DNA of 64,000 nucleotides from Methanosarcina barkeri MS. GTDB lineage: Archaea; Halobacteriota; Methanosarcinia; Methanosarcinales; Methanosarcinaceae. Made by a program: the position numbers and the translations under genes. A model generated the notes under the pieces. It saw only the letters and a list, made by a program, of their open reading frames with translations, was not told the origin of the DNA and did no database searches. How positions within the stretch are numbered: position 1 is the first letter of the stretch; each line of letters opens with the position of its first letter. This document shows positions 6,769 to 58,253 of the stretch, piece after piece. The stretch spans positions 1,537,168 to 1,601,167 of the forward strand of contig NZ_CP009528.1 in the NCBI RefSeq assembly GCF_000970025.1. The letters run 5' to 3'.

Positions 6769-7551
6769 TCAAGCGGTAATGTATTGCTCATTAAGTAGCG
6801 TAAAATTTTTGTCATCTAATTTTGCATTATGAAGGGTTTTTACTTTAGAGAGCTGGTCAAATGATAAGTTTTTCACATTAGTTAGCTTAGCTCCTTGAAG
6901 GTTTGCTTCCTGAAGGTTAGCTTCTTGAAGGTTAGCTTCTTGAAGGTCAGACTTTTGAAGATCAGCTACATAAAGATCAGCTGCCTGGAGGTCAGCCCCA
7001 CGAAGGTTAGCTCCATGAAGATTAGCTCCCTGAAAGTTAGCTCCTTGAAGATTAGCTCCTTGCAAGTTAGCCAAATGGATATTGGATAACTGGAGTTTCG
7101 CTCCTTTAAGGTTAGCTCCCTTAAGGTTAGCCCTTGTAAGATTAGCTCCCTGGAGATTAGCTCCCTGGAGATTAGCTCCTTGAAGATTAGTGCCTATACC
7201 CTCTAAAAGGTACGAATTTGAGAGGTCGGCTCCTTGCAGGTTAGCCTCCTGGAGGTTTGCCTCTTGAAAGTTAGCCCCGCGAAGGTCAGCCCCGCGAAGG
7301 TCAGCTCTATAAAGGTTAGCTCCTTGAAGATCAGCCTGTGTAAGGTTAGCTTTTATGAGATAAGCTTCCTGAAGGTTAGCGTCTTGAAAGTTAGCCCATA
7401 TAAGGTTATTTTTTTCAAGATGGGCGCCTGGAAGGTCAACTCCTCTATAGTTTTTTCTCTCTATAATATTCATATGTAATAATTGGCGCTCCATAAAAAT
7501 AAATATTACTATTCTAGGAAGAAACCTTCCGTTATCCGGGGGTTCGTTCAT
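6769..7551 (-). CDS. Pentapeptide-repeat protein
   Basis: 260 residues. From about residue 45 to 225 nearly every fifth residue fits A(N/D)Lxx, for example ANLQGANLYRADLRGADLRG, about 35 repeats, with a short break at SNSYLLEGIG. Such repeats form a right-handed quadrilateral beta-helix. There is no signal peptide, so it is probably cytoplasmic. The start is uncertain: Met1 (7551), Met20 (MERQLL) or Met27 (MNIIER) could serve, and none has a clear ribosome binding site. Family members include DNA-gyrase-protecting proteins, but most have no known role and nothing here indicates one. The DNA is correspondingly repetitive with a 15-base period. Confidence 0.85.
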   Translation of the reverse strand: MNEPPDNGRFLPRIVIFIFMERQLLHMNIIERKNYRGVDLPGAHLEKNNLIWANFQDANLQEAYLIKANLTQADLQGANLYRADLRGADLRGANFQEANLQEANLQGADLSNSYLLEGIGTNLQGANLQGANLQGANLTRANLKGANLKGAKLQLSNIHLANLQGANLQGANFQGANLHGANLRGADLQAADLYVADLQKSDLQEANLQEANLQEANLQGAKLTNVKNLSFDQLSKVKTLHNAKLDDKNFTLLNEQYITA

Positions 7552-43552: not shown

Positions 43553-44452
43553 ATTGAGGTTTTGGTATTTTTCTTTAAATTACTTATTTTCCAAATAATA
43601 ATCACAAAAGGTGATTTTACAAAAATATTGTCTATTTGTTTTTTAAATAAATTTTTAATACTTATCGTATGGATTATACCTGATTAAGGCTATTTTAAGT
43701 TAGTAATCTAGAAACAAGCCATAAAAAGGTATGATACATAACAAAAATTATTGAGAAGAAAGTCAAATATTTATTGCTACAACTGAGTGATTTTTTAGGG
43801 GTTGCAAAAACAATAGTTGTAAGCCTGAAGAGCATTGAAGGTAGACAAATATGAAAAACTATTTAGAAAAAAGTAAAAGACAAAAAGGAAAATATAAGAG
43901 TTTATACTCTTCACACCAACCAGTTACTACTCAACCAGTTACTACTCAACCAGTTACTACTTATAGATTTTATAAGTCACCTTTTTGAAAAATCAACATC
44001 TTCAACCACTTGCTTTTCAACATATTAAAACATTCAAGTGACATTTAGGCAATATTTTTGCACTAAACTCTTCGCTTGATTCTTATTTCAATGACCTTCT
44101 TCTCTAATTGGTACGCTTGCCTCAAAATTAACTCGAACAAAAGTCTTCTGGTCTAAAATGTTAATGGAACTCAATAAATTACTTGGTTCAAGATTATAAT
44201 CTATTTTATATTGTTTTAGTTCACTCTTTCTATTTTATATTCTTCTTAATATTTTACTAAAAACCGTCATTTTGTTTATTATTACTTCAATTTATTAAGT
44301 TCTTTCAATGAGTAACATATTACACTAGTTAACATTGTAATAACTGGAGTTTTAATCAATAGATGATAATTATTAAAGTATAACCAAAAAAAATTTAAAA
44401 ATAACTTCAAAAGATAAAACGACAAATGAACAAATATGAGAGAAAAGGTATC
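43553..44452. other. Long AT-rich spacer
   Basis: 900 bases with no gene; contains the three 15-base repeats at 43917-43961. Confidence 0.55.
43917..43961. repeat. Three exact tandem 15-base repeats
   Basis: caaccagttactact three times without change. Confidence 0.95.
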
Positions 44453-45937
44453 ATGAAAAGTAAAATCGTAATTTGCATATTCTTATTAAGCATTACCATA
44501 GCGAGCCTTGGATGCAGTTCGCAGTCAGATGGGTCACAAGAGAGTTCTCAACTAAATGACACGAAAAATGAGATTGCTGGAGATCTCAAGGACATAGAAG
44601 GCACCTGGATGGGAAATTTAACAGCCCCAGGTGGATTGGAGTTAAGGATTGTGTTCAATATTTCTACTAATTCTGATGGGTCTATCAATGCCAGTATGGA
44701 CAGCCCTGATCAGGGAGTAAGCGGCATACCTGTTGAAAGTGTTAGTTATAAGGATGGTAACCTGAACCTTGGAGTAAAATCCATAAAGGGAAGTTTTGAA
44801 GGGATATATAAGGAGAATAACAAAACCATAGAAGGAGAATGGAAGCAAGCAGGATCAGCTTTTCCACTTGTGCTTGAAAGGGTCGAGAAAGTTCCTGAAA
44901 TGCACCGAGAACAGGACCCGGTAAAGCCTTATCCGTATACCGAAGAAGAAGTTGTTTATGAAAATAAAGAAGCAGGAGTAAAGCTGGCAGGAACGTTAAC
45001 TCTTCCGCAGTCAGAGGGGCCTTTCCCGGCAGTCATACTCATAACGGGTTCAGGCCAGCAAAATCGTAATGAGGAAATTGCGGGTCATCGCCCGTTCCTT
45101 GTACTTTCAGACTATCTGACGCGACAGGGAATTGCCGTGCTTCGGGTCGATGATCGAGGTATTGGAGGTTCAACCGGAAACTTTTCACAGGCTACAACTG
45201 AGGACTTTGCTGGAGATGTACTCACAGGAGTTGAATACCTCAAAAATCGCAAGGAGATCGATCCAGGTCGAATTGGACTGATTGGACACAGCGAAGGAGG
45301 GCTGATTGCCCCTATGGTAGCAGTAAAGTCTCCTGATGTTGCATTCATTGTACTCATGGCTGGTCAGGGAATTACCGGGGAAGAGATTTCATACCTCCAG
45401 AGTGACCTGATTTACAGGGCAGAAGGGGTAGACAATGAAACCATCGCGCATAACGAAGCTCTGTTGAGAAGAATGTATTCTGTGGTAAAAGAAGAACAGA
45501 ATAACACAGCAGCTGAGGAAAAGCTTCGGGAGATTCTAAAAGCCGAGATGGCAAATACAAGTGAGCAGAAAATAGAAAGTTCAGACCATTCCGAGGCTGT
45601 CATTGACGCTCAAGTAACAGCACTCACCTCGCCATGGATGCGCTTTTTCCTTACATATGATCCCAGGCCAACCTTAATGAAAGTCAAATGTCCTGTCTTG
45701 GCTATAAATGGAGAAAAAGACCTTCAGGTTCCGCCTGAAGAAAATCTCAAGGCTATAGATGAAGCTCTCAAGGCTGGAGGTAATAAAGACTATACAGTTA
45801 AAGAACTGCCAGGTCTCAACCATTTATTCCAGACCGCTAAAACAGGGTTTCCCTCAGAGTACTCAAAAATAGAAGAGACAATTTCTCCGGCTGCTCTGGA
45901 GATTATAGGGAACTGGATCTCGGAACATACACAGTGA
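44453..45937 (+). CDS. Alpha/beta-hydrolase lipoprotein
   Basis: 494 residues from the ATG at 44453, preceded by AAAGGT; a longer frame from 44426 adds nine residues before the signal peptide and seems less likely. Signal peptide with lipobox IASLGC, then a beta domain (about 45-145, DIEGTWMGNLTAPGGLELRI), then the hydrolase fold: VILITGSGQQNRNEE (oxyanion region), VLRVDDRGIGGSTG, GLIGHSEGGLIAPMVA with nucleophile Ser in GHSEGG, INGEKDLQVPPEEN (Asp) and LPGLNHLFQ (His). It probably acts as an esterase or peptidase outside the membrane. The layout resembles a common secreted family of bacteria, so transfer is possible. Substrate unknown. Confidence 0.85.
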   Translation: MKSKIVICIFLLSITIASLGCSSQSDGSQESSQLNDTKNEIAGDLKDIEGTWMGNLTAPGGLELRIVFNISTNSDGSINASMDSPDQGVSGIPVESVSYKDGNLNLGVKSIKGSFEGIYKENNKTIEGEWKQAGSAFPLVLERVEKVPEMHREQDPVKPYPYTEEEVVYENKEAGVKLAGTLTLPQSEGPFPAVILITGSGQQNRNEEIAGHRPFLVLSDYLTRQGIAVLRVDDRGIGGSTGNFSQATTEDFAGDVLTGVEYLKNRKEIDPGRIGLIGHSEGGLIAPMVAVKSPDVAFIVLMAGQGITGEEISYLQSDLIYRAEGVDNETIAHNEALLRRMYSVVKEEQNNTAAEEKLREILKAEMANTSEQKIESSDHSEAVIDAQVTALTSPWMRFFLTYDPRPTLMKVKCPVLAINGEKDLQVPPEENLKAIDEALKAGGNKDYTVKELPGLNHLFQTAKTGFPSEYSKIEETISPAALEIIGNWISEHTQ

Positions 45938-46651
45938 AAATCAAAACAAGAAATTTAAAAAGTTATAGGGTGAAGGGAGAATAATAGTACTGTAAATGTA
46001 TAGACATCTTTTTATTGTAACTTTTCCTTCCTCTTTTACGATATTGATTAATATTTATAATCTTTGTTTCTATTATGTAATTATTAATAACGATTTCTAC
46101 TAAAATATATCTATCTATCTGTTATATATTGAGTATACAGGCAAAATATATCTTTAAATATCCTCTTACATATTTATAAAATTCGAAGTTGTTCTAAAAT
46201 AGCTAGACAAAGGATTTACTTTCCACTGGCCACTAATAAAATAGGCAGATAATATTATTTAAAAGCCTATATTCCGTCTATTATTCTATATTTTAATTAA
46301 ACAAAGATAATCAGAGTTTTTAAATAAATATATGACTTTAATAAAGCAGGTATGTGAAAAAAAGTATCATCCAGCAGGCTTTTTTGAATATAAGTAACTA
46401 CATTAACTTTTTAGGAGATAAAACTTTCAGAAAAGGCCTTCATTTGGTTTTTAACTAACGAGAGATATAGTTACGTACAATTTGTAATATTATCATCTTT
46501 CAGTATATAAAATAAAGCATTATAAAGCTTTAAATTCCATTTTTGAGTTTTATAAAAGTACATAAAAAAAAGTAAGCTTATATATTAGTTTATCCAGTTA
46601 ACTCCTGTTACGGATATTCTCAACAAATATAAGTATATCAGGAGGAAAAAA
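45938..46651. other. Spacer with promoter of the Cys-rich gene
   Basis: AT-rich, gene-free; the promoter element at 46568-46601 is listed separately. Confidence 0.5.
46568..46601 (+). promoter_or_regulatory. Promoter element shared with the exported coiled-coil gene
   Basis: aaaagtaagcttatatatta + gtttatccagttaa. The same sequence, five bases shorter, lies at 28739-28767. ttatatatta is a good TATA box; the A of the ATG is 51 bases after this element. Confidence 0.55.
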
Positions 46652-47329
46652 ATGAATTTTAACAGAAAGTCAATATGGAAAATTACGGCATCTGTTTCTG
46701 TTATATTAATGTTATTGATATTAGGGATTTCTTCAGCTTCGGCATGTCCAGCCAAATCTACTGCCGAATCTACTGACTATAATTATACATATGTCTCATC
46801 CCATAGCAACTGCGACAACGCCGAGTGTGAAGGAAACTGCTGTGATGAGTGTGCAGATGTTTGTGGCCAGGATTGCAAAGGAGAATGCTGTGACAACTGT
46901 ACTGAAAACTGTAACTGTACTGAAAACTGTAATGGATCAGACTGTGCAGGAAACTGCTGTGACGAATGTGCAGATGTTTGTGGCCAGGATTGCAAAGGAG
47001 AGTGCTGTGACAACTGTACTGAAAACTGTAACTGTACTGAAAACTGTAACTGTACTGAAAACTGTAATGGATCAGACTGTACAGGAAACTGCTGTGACGA
47101 ATGTGCAGATGTTTGTGGCCAGGATTGCAAAGGAGAATGCTGTGACAACTGTACTGAAAACTGTAACGGATCCAACTGTGTAGATAACTGCTGTGACAAC
47201 TGTAACGGGTCCAACTGTGCAGATAACTGCTGTGACAACTGTACTGAAAACTGTAACGATGACGATTTTGCAAAAGACTTCCCTGACGACTGTATAGTAA
47301 TCTGCGACCAAGATTGCGCAGGAAACTAA
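46652..47329 (+). CDS. Exported Cys-rich repeat protein
   Basis: 225 residues; AGGAGG precedes the ATG. A signal peptide (about 10-31, ending SSASA-CPA) is followed by about 180 residues with about 50 Cys. Three long repeats each read NCCDECADVCGQDCKGECCD then NCTENCN and a GS(D/N)C link; shorter DNCCDNC units follow. Most CC and CxxC/CxxxC pairs are spaced by Asp, Glu, Asn and Gly. The composition suits dense metal binding or a disulfide-linked extracellular fibre. NCT sequons could be glycosylated. The gene repeats are also near-exact at DNA level (about 117-135 base units), so repeat number may vary. No family is recognised. Confidence 0.8.
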   Translation: MNFNRKSIWKITASVSVILMLLILGISSASACPAKSTAESTDYNYTYVSSHSNCDNAECEGNCCDECADVCGQDCKGECCDNCTENCNCTENCNGSDCAGNCCDECADVCGQDCKGECCDNCTENCNCTENCNCTENCNGSDCTGNCCDECADVCGQDCKGECCDNCTENCNGSNCVDNCCDNCNGSNCADNCCDNCTENCNDDDFAKDFPDDCIVICDQDCAGN

Positions 47330-47570: not shown

Positions 47571-48881
47571 TCAACCCTGAGAAACAGAAGGAAACGGCGT
47601 TACCAGTACTTTATCTATTCGATTGCCGTCCATATCCGCAACCTCGTACCTCAATCTTCCTAGAACGATATGGTCTCCGGTTACTGGAATTCGCTGCAGG
47701 ATAAAAATGATCAGCCCTGCTGTGGTACGATAGTACCCAAGTTCCTCACCTGGAAATGAGTCCACAGACAGGACATCTTTAAGTTTCTCAATGGGAGTGT
47801 CCCCATCTATCAACCAGGAACCATCTTCCCTAACACTAATCTGTGTCTCCACGGGCTCGCCAAGGGAGCGGACTTCACCCACTATAGCCTCAAGGATATC
47901 ATGAAGGGTTATTACACCCTGAATACTCCCGTATTCGTCAGTTATAAGGGCAATATGTACTCCGGTTTCCTTGAATGACTCAAGAAGCTTCAGGACTGAG
48001 GCGCTTTCAGGTACAAAGAGCGGTTTTGTAACAAGTAATTTGAGATTAACAGTCCCACTTTCCACAAAATTCTCAAGGACTTTTTTTACGGATATCATCC
48101 CGACGATATTATTCAGATCACCTTCATATGCAGGAAAATTGGATCTACCGCTTTCGATCATTTTCCGCAGATTTTCATCAGTTTGGTCTTCAAGGTCAAG
48201 CGCAATAAGGTCAGTGCGATGCGTCATAAGAGAATCTACACGTCGGTCACCGATCTCAAGCACACTTTCTATCATGCTTAATTCGGCTTTCTCAAACACT
48301 CCAGCTCTGGCTCCTTCCTCAAACATAATCTTAATTTCCTCTTCTGTTACCGGGGGCTCAACAGTCTTCCTGACTTTCATGACCCTGAGCACAGCTTCGG
48401 TAGAACTACTGAGAATAACTACAAGCGGCCTTGCAATAATAGAAAGATAAAACATAGGTTTTGCGATACTGGAGGCAATTGATTCCGCATTATTGAGCGC
48501 AAGCCTTTTTGGGACAAGTTCTCCGAAAATTAAGGTCAGGTAAGTAATTAAGAGCACTACAAGAGTGATGCTTATCACGTTACTGTACGGAGAAAGGGCA
48601 GGAAATTTTTCAAGGTATACTGCAAACTCTTCTGATATCGTAGCTCCACCAAACGCACCTGTAAAGATTCCTACAAGAGTAATTCCTATCTGGATCGTTG
48701 AGAGAAAAGGAGTTGGCTCATTAGCAAGCTTAAGTGCAACAGCTGCCCGTTTATCTCCTTCTTCCTCCCGTTGCTTCAAGCGGGTTTTCTTTGCAGATAC
48801 AAGAGCAAATTCTGACATGGAAAATATGCCATTGAGTGCGATCAAAACAAGGACGATTGCGATCTCAAGTAAATATGCCAT
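47571..48881 (-). CDS. CNNM/CorC-HlyC family membrane protein
   Basis: 436 residues. N-terminal DUF21 membrane domain with four hydrophobic segments (about 1-180; MSEFALVSAKKTRLKQREEE), a pair of CBS domains (about 205-335; DSLMTHRTDLIALDLEDQTD and ALITDEYGSIQGVITLHDIL) and a C-terminal CorC/HlyC domain (about 345-430; GSWLIDGDTPIEKLKDVL). The family is linked to magnesium or cobalt transport and efflux, with CBS domains sensing adenosyl ligands. No ion can be assigned from sequence alone. The start at 48881 begins the first membrane helix. Confidence 0.9.
   Translation of the reverse strand: MAYLLEIAIVLVLIALNGIFSMSEFALVSAKKTRLKQREEEGDKRAAVALKLANEPTPFLSTIQIGITLVGIFTGAFGGATISEEFAVYLEKFPALSPYSNVISITLVVLLITYLTLIFGELVPKRLALNNAESIASSIAKPMFYLSIIARPLVVILSSSTEAVLRVMKVRKTVEPPVTEEEIKIMFEEGARAGVFEKAELSMIESVLEIGDRRVDSLMTHRTDLIALDLEDQTDENLRKMIESGRSNFPAYEGDLNNIVGMISVKKVLENFVESGTVNLKLLVTKPLFVPESASVLKLLESFKETGVHIALITDEYGSIQGVITLHDILEAIVGEVRSLGEPVETQISVREDGSWLIDGDTPIEKLKDVLSVDSFPGEELGYYRTTAGLIIFILQRIPVTGDHIVLGRLRYEVADMDGNRIDKVLVTPFPSVSQG

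Positions 48882-56325: not shown

Positions 56326-58253
<1,928 letters not shown>

Follow-up and report, generated by a model that had tools for sequence, protein, structure and literature searches.

An exported cysteine-array protein of Methanosarcina barkeri MS and the upstream element it shares with other exported proteins

Metallothioneins form a class of small thiolate proteins, and several of their features recur in a Cys-array protein of Methanosarcina barkeri MS: a chain that is very rich in Cys, poor in or free of His, of low complexity and without a hydrophobic core, and a variable number of repeats. However, metallothioneins are cytosolic, whereas the Cys-array protein is predicted to be exported and is acidic, and their hallmark, CxC, is significantly depleted in it (3 occurrences against 9.3 expected from shuffles) and absent from the other 11 orthologues. 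An earlier note on this DNA had found no known metallothionein pattern to fit, and none of the metallothionein families in Pfam and NCBIfam matches. Vanabins, the vanadium-binding proteins of ascidians, share with it a polar, Cys-rich chain and CxxxC-like spacing. Vanabin2 has a compact fold with nine disulfides, and a vanabin (PDB 1vfi) was the sole PDB profile match, but at E 1.4 it is not a relative by this test. Among bacteria, OmcA and OmcB of Chlamydia are disulfide-linked, Cys-rich envelope proteins. They may serve as a works-like analogy, as they too are rich in Cys, leave the cell and are made together with other surface proteins, but their partners are a lipoprotein or porin, while those of the Cys-array protein are PKD and Ig-like proteins. 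The PKD surface proteins of Methanosarcina are likewise exported, with a related signal peptide and the same 22-nt upstream element (28 of 98 sites), but have a folded beta domain with 1–7 Cys and lack a Cys array. No description of the Cys-array protein or of the regulon marked by the 22-nt element was found in the open literature.

The window, i.e. the whole stretch of 64,000 nt that was analysed, belongs to a chromosome of 4.53 Mb, which is accompanied by a second contig of 41.7 kb. When an 8-kb piece of this contig was compared, 80% of it matched a plasmid of M. barkeri 227 at 100% identity. The gene and its surroundings have the following features, numbered within the window.

44426–45937, + strand: upstream neighbour, exported alpha/beta hydrolase with a lipobox (Pfam Peptidase_S9 / alpha-beta hydrolase; synteny)
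46513–46534, + strand: 22-nt upstream element, TAAAGCATTATAAAGCTTTAAA, in all aligned orthologues and common to the regulon
46570–46588, + strand: putative BRE/TATA box, AAGTAAGCTTATATATTAG, 57 nt downstream of the element start
46640–46645, + strand: ribosome binding site AGGAGG, from the sequence, kept in orthologues
46652–47329, + strand: gene for the Cys-rich exported protein (225 aa, 50 Cys), from ORF translation and purifying selection
46652–46744, + strand: predicted signal peptide, 31 aa, cleaved between A-S-A and C32 (alignment A1)
46826–47254, + strand: Cys-repeat array, seven strict 13-aa modules C-x3-CC-x2-C-x3-C
46895–47164, + strand: two successive 135-nt DNA repeats, 99% identical (DNA repeat comparison, TRF)
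47255–47326, + strand: acidic C-terminal tail (NDDDFAKDFPDDCIVICDQDCAGN), present also in the two nearest relatives
47571–48881, − strand: downstream neighbour, convergent, CNNM/CBS/CorC-type membrane protein (Pfam CNNM, CBS, CorC_HlyC; synteny)

Where about 50 Cys in near-exact repeats had been proposed, the product has exactly 50, all of them at or after C32, which directly follows the signal peptide MNFNRKSIWKITASVSVILMLLILGISSASA. R5, K6, A29, A31 and C32 are invariant across the 9 aligned members (alignment A1), with the cleavage pattern A-x-A followed by C, and inspection reveals the basic n-region, hydrophobic core and AxA site typical of Sec/SPase I export. Taken together, the ATG with AGGAGG 6 nt upstream, a promoter of the TATA type and the invariant A29, A31 and C32 around the signal-peptide cleavage site argue for a real exported protein, and the earlier claim of export is thus upheld at the level of sequence. 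A lipoprotein was considered and rejected: the lipobox [LVI][AST][GA]C is missing, position −3 is Ala in aligned members, and the Cys position is shifted in L009 and L091. Reverse-strand ORFs were also rejected, as they are a mirror image of the repeat and selection acts on the + frame. The mature chain (194 aa) is 25.8% Cys, carries a net charge of about −39 (44 Asp/Glu vs 6 Lys/Arg/His), and contains 31 Asn, a single His, no Met and only 6.7% hydrophobic residues. It belongs to no Pfam family at E≤10 and to none in NCBIfam, and a PDB sequence search gave nothing significant. An AlphaFold2 model with four sequences as input reached a pLDDT of 35 and is uninformative; the helices that it places at the modules are of low confidence.

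The basic module is 13 aa long with 5 Cys, C-x-G-x-C-C-x2-C-x3-C, and usually occurs as a pair which, with linkers of 3 and 4 residues, forms a 33-aa, 10-Cys unit. In the window protein the seven strict modules (starting at nt 46826, 46874, 46943, 46991, 47078, 47126 and 47216) are separated by 3-aa linkers or by longer stretches, often containing Cys, and are accompanied by NCTENC inserts. The recurrence of a unit and of NCTENC phrases, noticed earlier at both protein and DNA level, is borne out: there are three occurrences of CADVCGQDCKGECCDNCTENC and seven of NCTENC, and in the DNA a 135-nt unit is present in triplicate, with 99% identity between two of the copies and TRF scores of up to 532 over the repeats of the gene. 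In a relative, G040 (277 aa, 63 Cys), the array consists of 11 modules with a strict spacing of 17, 16, 17, 16. Elsewhere in the window, nt 6769–7551 (−) encode a 260-aa pentapeptide-repeat protein of the ANLQGANLQ type, which is the origin of a 15-nt tandem array detected by TRF, and nt 58182–58253 are a perfect (TAAA)18 microsatellite.

A profile search of 31 Methanosarcina genomes recovered eleven proteins that clearly belong to the CxGxCC type, with G012 as a weak match, and when the profile was extended to 393 genomes of the phylum every match lay in Methanosarcina. The DNA pattern of the module gave scattered matches outside the genus, largely single or low-complexity, true arrays being found only in Methanosarcina, and the viral contigs and plasmids searched yielded no relative. 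Between orthologues, dN/dS of the mature chain is 0.15–0.46, and against one near relative the Cys codons give 0.02, with 48 of 50 Cys retained; these values are approximate, since the repeats blur pairwise alignments. For the pair formed by the window protein and G040, the Cys codons have a dS of 0.74 and a dN of 0.015, and the other codons a dN/dS of 0.32. By these codon comparisons the gene is under purifying selection, which is strongest at the Cys codons.

The promoter and signal peptide are retained across orthologues while the Cys spacing changes (x3, x2 or x4). Cys number ranges from 16 to 63, with a density of 19–28% in the Cys-rich members; negative charge and a scarcity of hydrophobic residues, Met and His are retained, while length, Cys number and spacing vary. 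The main spacing is x3, with a Cys periodicity of about 4 residues in most orthologues, but it is x4 in G009, and CxxC runs occur in G014 only, where a single module is followed by CxxC repeats. The G009 protein (238 aa, 40 Cys, mostly C-x4-C) has no CxGxCC module, yet it lies downstream of the orthologous hydrolase gene, its upstream region can be aligned with that of the other loci, and its signal peptide is homologous; G003 and G012 carry related forms. A constant density combined with rebuilt spacing points to Cys density as the selected trait and argues against one conserved disulfide fold, so that thiol density rather than a fixed fold seems to be under selection. The variation in Cys number and spacing is consistent with the earlier suggestion of a thiol chemistry other than that of a single compact disulfide domain.

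Most loci of the family lie between the alpha/beta hydrolase and the CNNM/CorC protein, but neither neighbour is part of the Cys-array unit, and an operon with the hydrolase was rejected in view of a 714-nt gap and the separate promoter of the Cys-array gene. G020 has an empty site, in which some 540 nt without a gene separate the two flanking genes. In G015 and G006 the promoter of the Cys-array gene is followed by a low-Cys protein made of RLRDGSC repeats (7 and 10 Cys), and in G041, G042 and G004 by short ORFs only (46–65 aa, 2–5 Cys). The occurrence of a degenerate short ORF, a low-Cys protein or no gene at several Methanosarcina loci indicates that some members of the genus can do without the protein. 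In G013, the reverse complement of L087 (1396–1695), downstream of the orthologous hydrolase, encodes an exported protein of 100 aa that is rich in Lys, has 14 Cys arranged in runs of CxxC and carries a signal peptide like that of the regulon's Big_9 family.

Alignment of the regions upstream of the orthologues shows a block, TAAAGNNTTATAAAGCTTTAAA, at nt 46513–46534 and a BRE/TATA-like block 57 nt further on. The distance from the 22-nt motif, TAAAGNNTTATNAAGYTTTAAA, to the BRE/TATA box is nearly constant at 57 nt, being 56–58 nt at all but two of the sites with a recognised TATA block; the long-Cys-repeat family gave no match to the TATA pattern used. Of the 31 Methanosarcina genomes, 27 contain the motif, with 98 sites in all (≤1 mismatch), and the reversed-pattern control gave 2; in 81 genomes from other genera of the family there were 10, each with one mismatch. 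We infer that the element is a regulator site.

Five sites (≤2 mismatches) occur in the genome of M. barkeri MS, all 140–190 nt upstream of genes for exported proteins: the Cys-array gene, a 618-aa protein, two PKD proteins of 142 aa each, and a Big_9 protein (142 aa, 15 Cys) with an Ig-like domain. The 618-aa protein (L229, 56 Cys) begins with NCSLx pentapeptide-like repeats, which give a weak match to Pfam Pentapeptide, and continues with TSTEDKTCDNAA repeats; it belongs to a long, Thr/Ser-rich repeat family (with L230, L231 and L232) having a Cys about every 11 residues. By type, the 98 sites comprise 28 PKD genes (1–7 Cys), 18 of the Cys-array locus type, 15 Big_9 Ig-like genes (12–19 Cys) and 11 of the long Cys-repeat family, the other 26 being mostly one conserved non-coding locus. 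At this locus a region of about 470 nt follows the element (L188:516–1030, −; L141:1586–2100, +; and about 18 further loci), ending in a strong GC-rich hairpin (CAGGCAAC...GTTGCCTG) and then a T-rich stretch. It has no match in Rfam and is a candidate new ncRNA. A DUF1699 gene also stands behind the element in two genomes, G016 (L227:261–671, +) and G022 (L180), and is possibly a further member of the regulon or its regulator. That the gene shares this unusual promoter with exported, mostly Cys-rich proteins suggests a thiol-rich programme of the cell surface that had not been described before, and not an isolated metal-binding curiosity.

Our preferred reading, to which we would give a probability of roughly 0.42, is that the gene encodes a secreted, low-complexity, thiol-dense protein of the envelope or matrix, cross-linked by disulfides, within a regulon of surface proteins that share one promoter type. 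The protein would be expressed as part of this small regulon, exported by the Sec route and freed of its signal peptide between A31 and C32, and we infer that it would then stay outside the membrane, with no anchor of its own. There the chain, acidic and either flexible or with short helices, would display the many Cys of its CxGxCCxxCxxxC modules, and these would most likely form disulfides within the chain, between chains and with co-expressed Cys-bearing proteins, which could toughen or tune the matrix; in the reduced state the thiols could also bind metal. The surface-type partners, the lack of an anchor, the Cys-spaced long partner and an enrichment of N-x-S/T sites in the M. barkeri-like group (12 where 3.2 would be expected), which would be compatible with a surface glycoprotein, all favour this reading, and isolated Cys about every 11 residues, as in the long partner, suit cross-linking better than chelation. 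The constraint on Cys codons, the composition retained despite rebuilt spacing, and the G009 protein are also counted in its favour. Against it are the low-confidence structural model, the absence of the N-x-S/T enrichment from several orthologues and the dispensability of the gene, and a reducing, sulfide-rich habitat speaks against stable disulfides.

Nearly as likely is that the same thiols act as a secreted metal sink, with metallothionein-like clusters outside the cytoplasm that bind soft metals (Zn, Cu, Cd, Ni, Fe) or FeS species, whether to detoxify them or to gather Fe and Ni. A chain with 26% Cys, CC and CxxC pairs, many acidic residues and no hydrophobic core would be in keeping with this, turnover of spacing is expected where only ligand density counts, and the G014 orthologue is a CxxC array. 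According to PMC9124975, M. barkeri MS acquires Fe and S from pyrite, for which extracellular reduction is thought necessary, but the accessible portions of the two pyrite papers (PMC9124975, PMC10846266) do not name the Cys-array protein. CxC is depleted in all orthologues tested, His is nearly absent, no metal transporter or metal regulator is evident among the genes behind the shared promoter, and the one profile match to a metal-binding protein, vanabin, is non-significant. Given the CxC depletion and the surface-type promoter partners, an envelope or matrix role fits at least as well as metal capture. Thiol density in a strict anaerobe, together with several Cys-rich co-promoter proteins, could alternatively indicate a sacrificial redox buffer, in which surface thiols consume oxygen or oxidants, become disulfides and are re-reduced by extracytoplasmic thioredoxin-like proteins; this is improbable, as no known oxidative-stress gene was seen with the promoter element and the co-regulated PKD proteins have few Cys. 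Less probable still is a binding or adhesion domain of defined fold, built from repeats of small, disulfide-rich helical hairpins like those of vanabins or hairpinins, each 33-aa unit contributing two helices of the CxxxC type. The periodicity near 4 residues, the helices tentatively modelled at the modules and the non-significant vanabin2 match would agree with such hairpins, but the number of Cys per module is odd, Cys are gained and lost among close relatives, x2 or x4 arrays replace the spacing at orthologous loci, and the pLDDT is 35. The conductive material raised in the earlier note found no backing in a haem form, nor did its Fe-S matrix as a general ferredoxin-like one: CxxCH, as expected of a c-type cytochrome or haem nanowire, is absent from 12 of 12 orthologues, and the ferredoxin-type CxxCxxCx3C is not conserved across orthologues, CxxCxxC runs being confined to G014.

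Beyond the single protein, the shared promoter may mark a genus-specific programme for a thiol-rich coat of Cys-array, Ig-like, PKD and Cys/Thr-repeat proteins plus a structured ncRNA, in which selection on the Cys arrays concerns only their thiol density and orthologous genes are hence rebuilt with quite different spacings; in this full form the proposal is tentative and rather unlikely. Repeat proteins rich in Cys would not be expected outside the cells of strict anaerobes and have for the most part not been described there, and what is new here is the 22-nt element that links the Cys-array gene with three further families of exported proteins and with a candidate ncRNA. Through it a curious ORF becomes a regulon open to testing, and the search for the regulator gains a starting point. 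A connection with Fe/S supply deserves a test, given the use of pyrite and the response of M. barkeri MS PKD surface proteins to the Fe/S source described in PMC10846266 and PMC9124975. The regulon may be relevant to matrix formation in Methanosarcina, to its dealings with metals or pyrite, or to its survival of oxygen.
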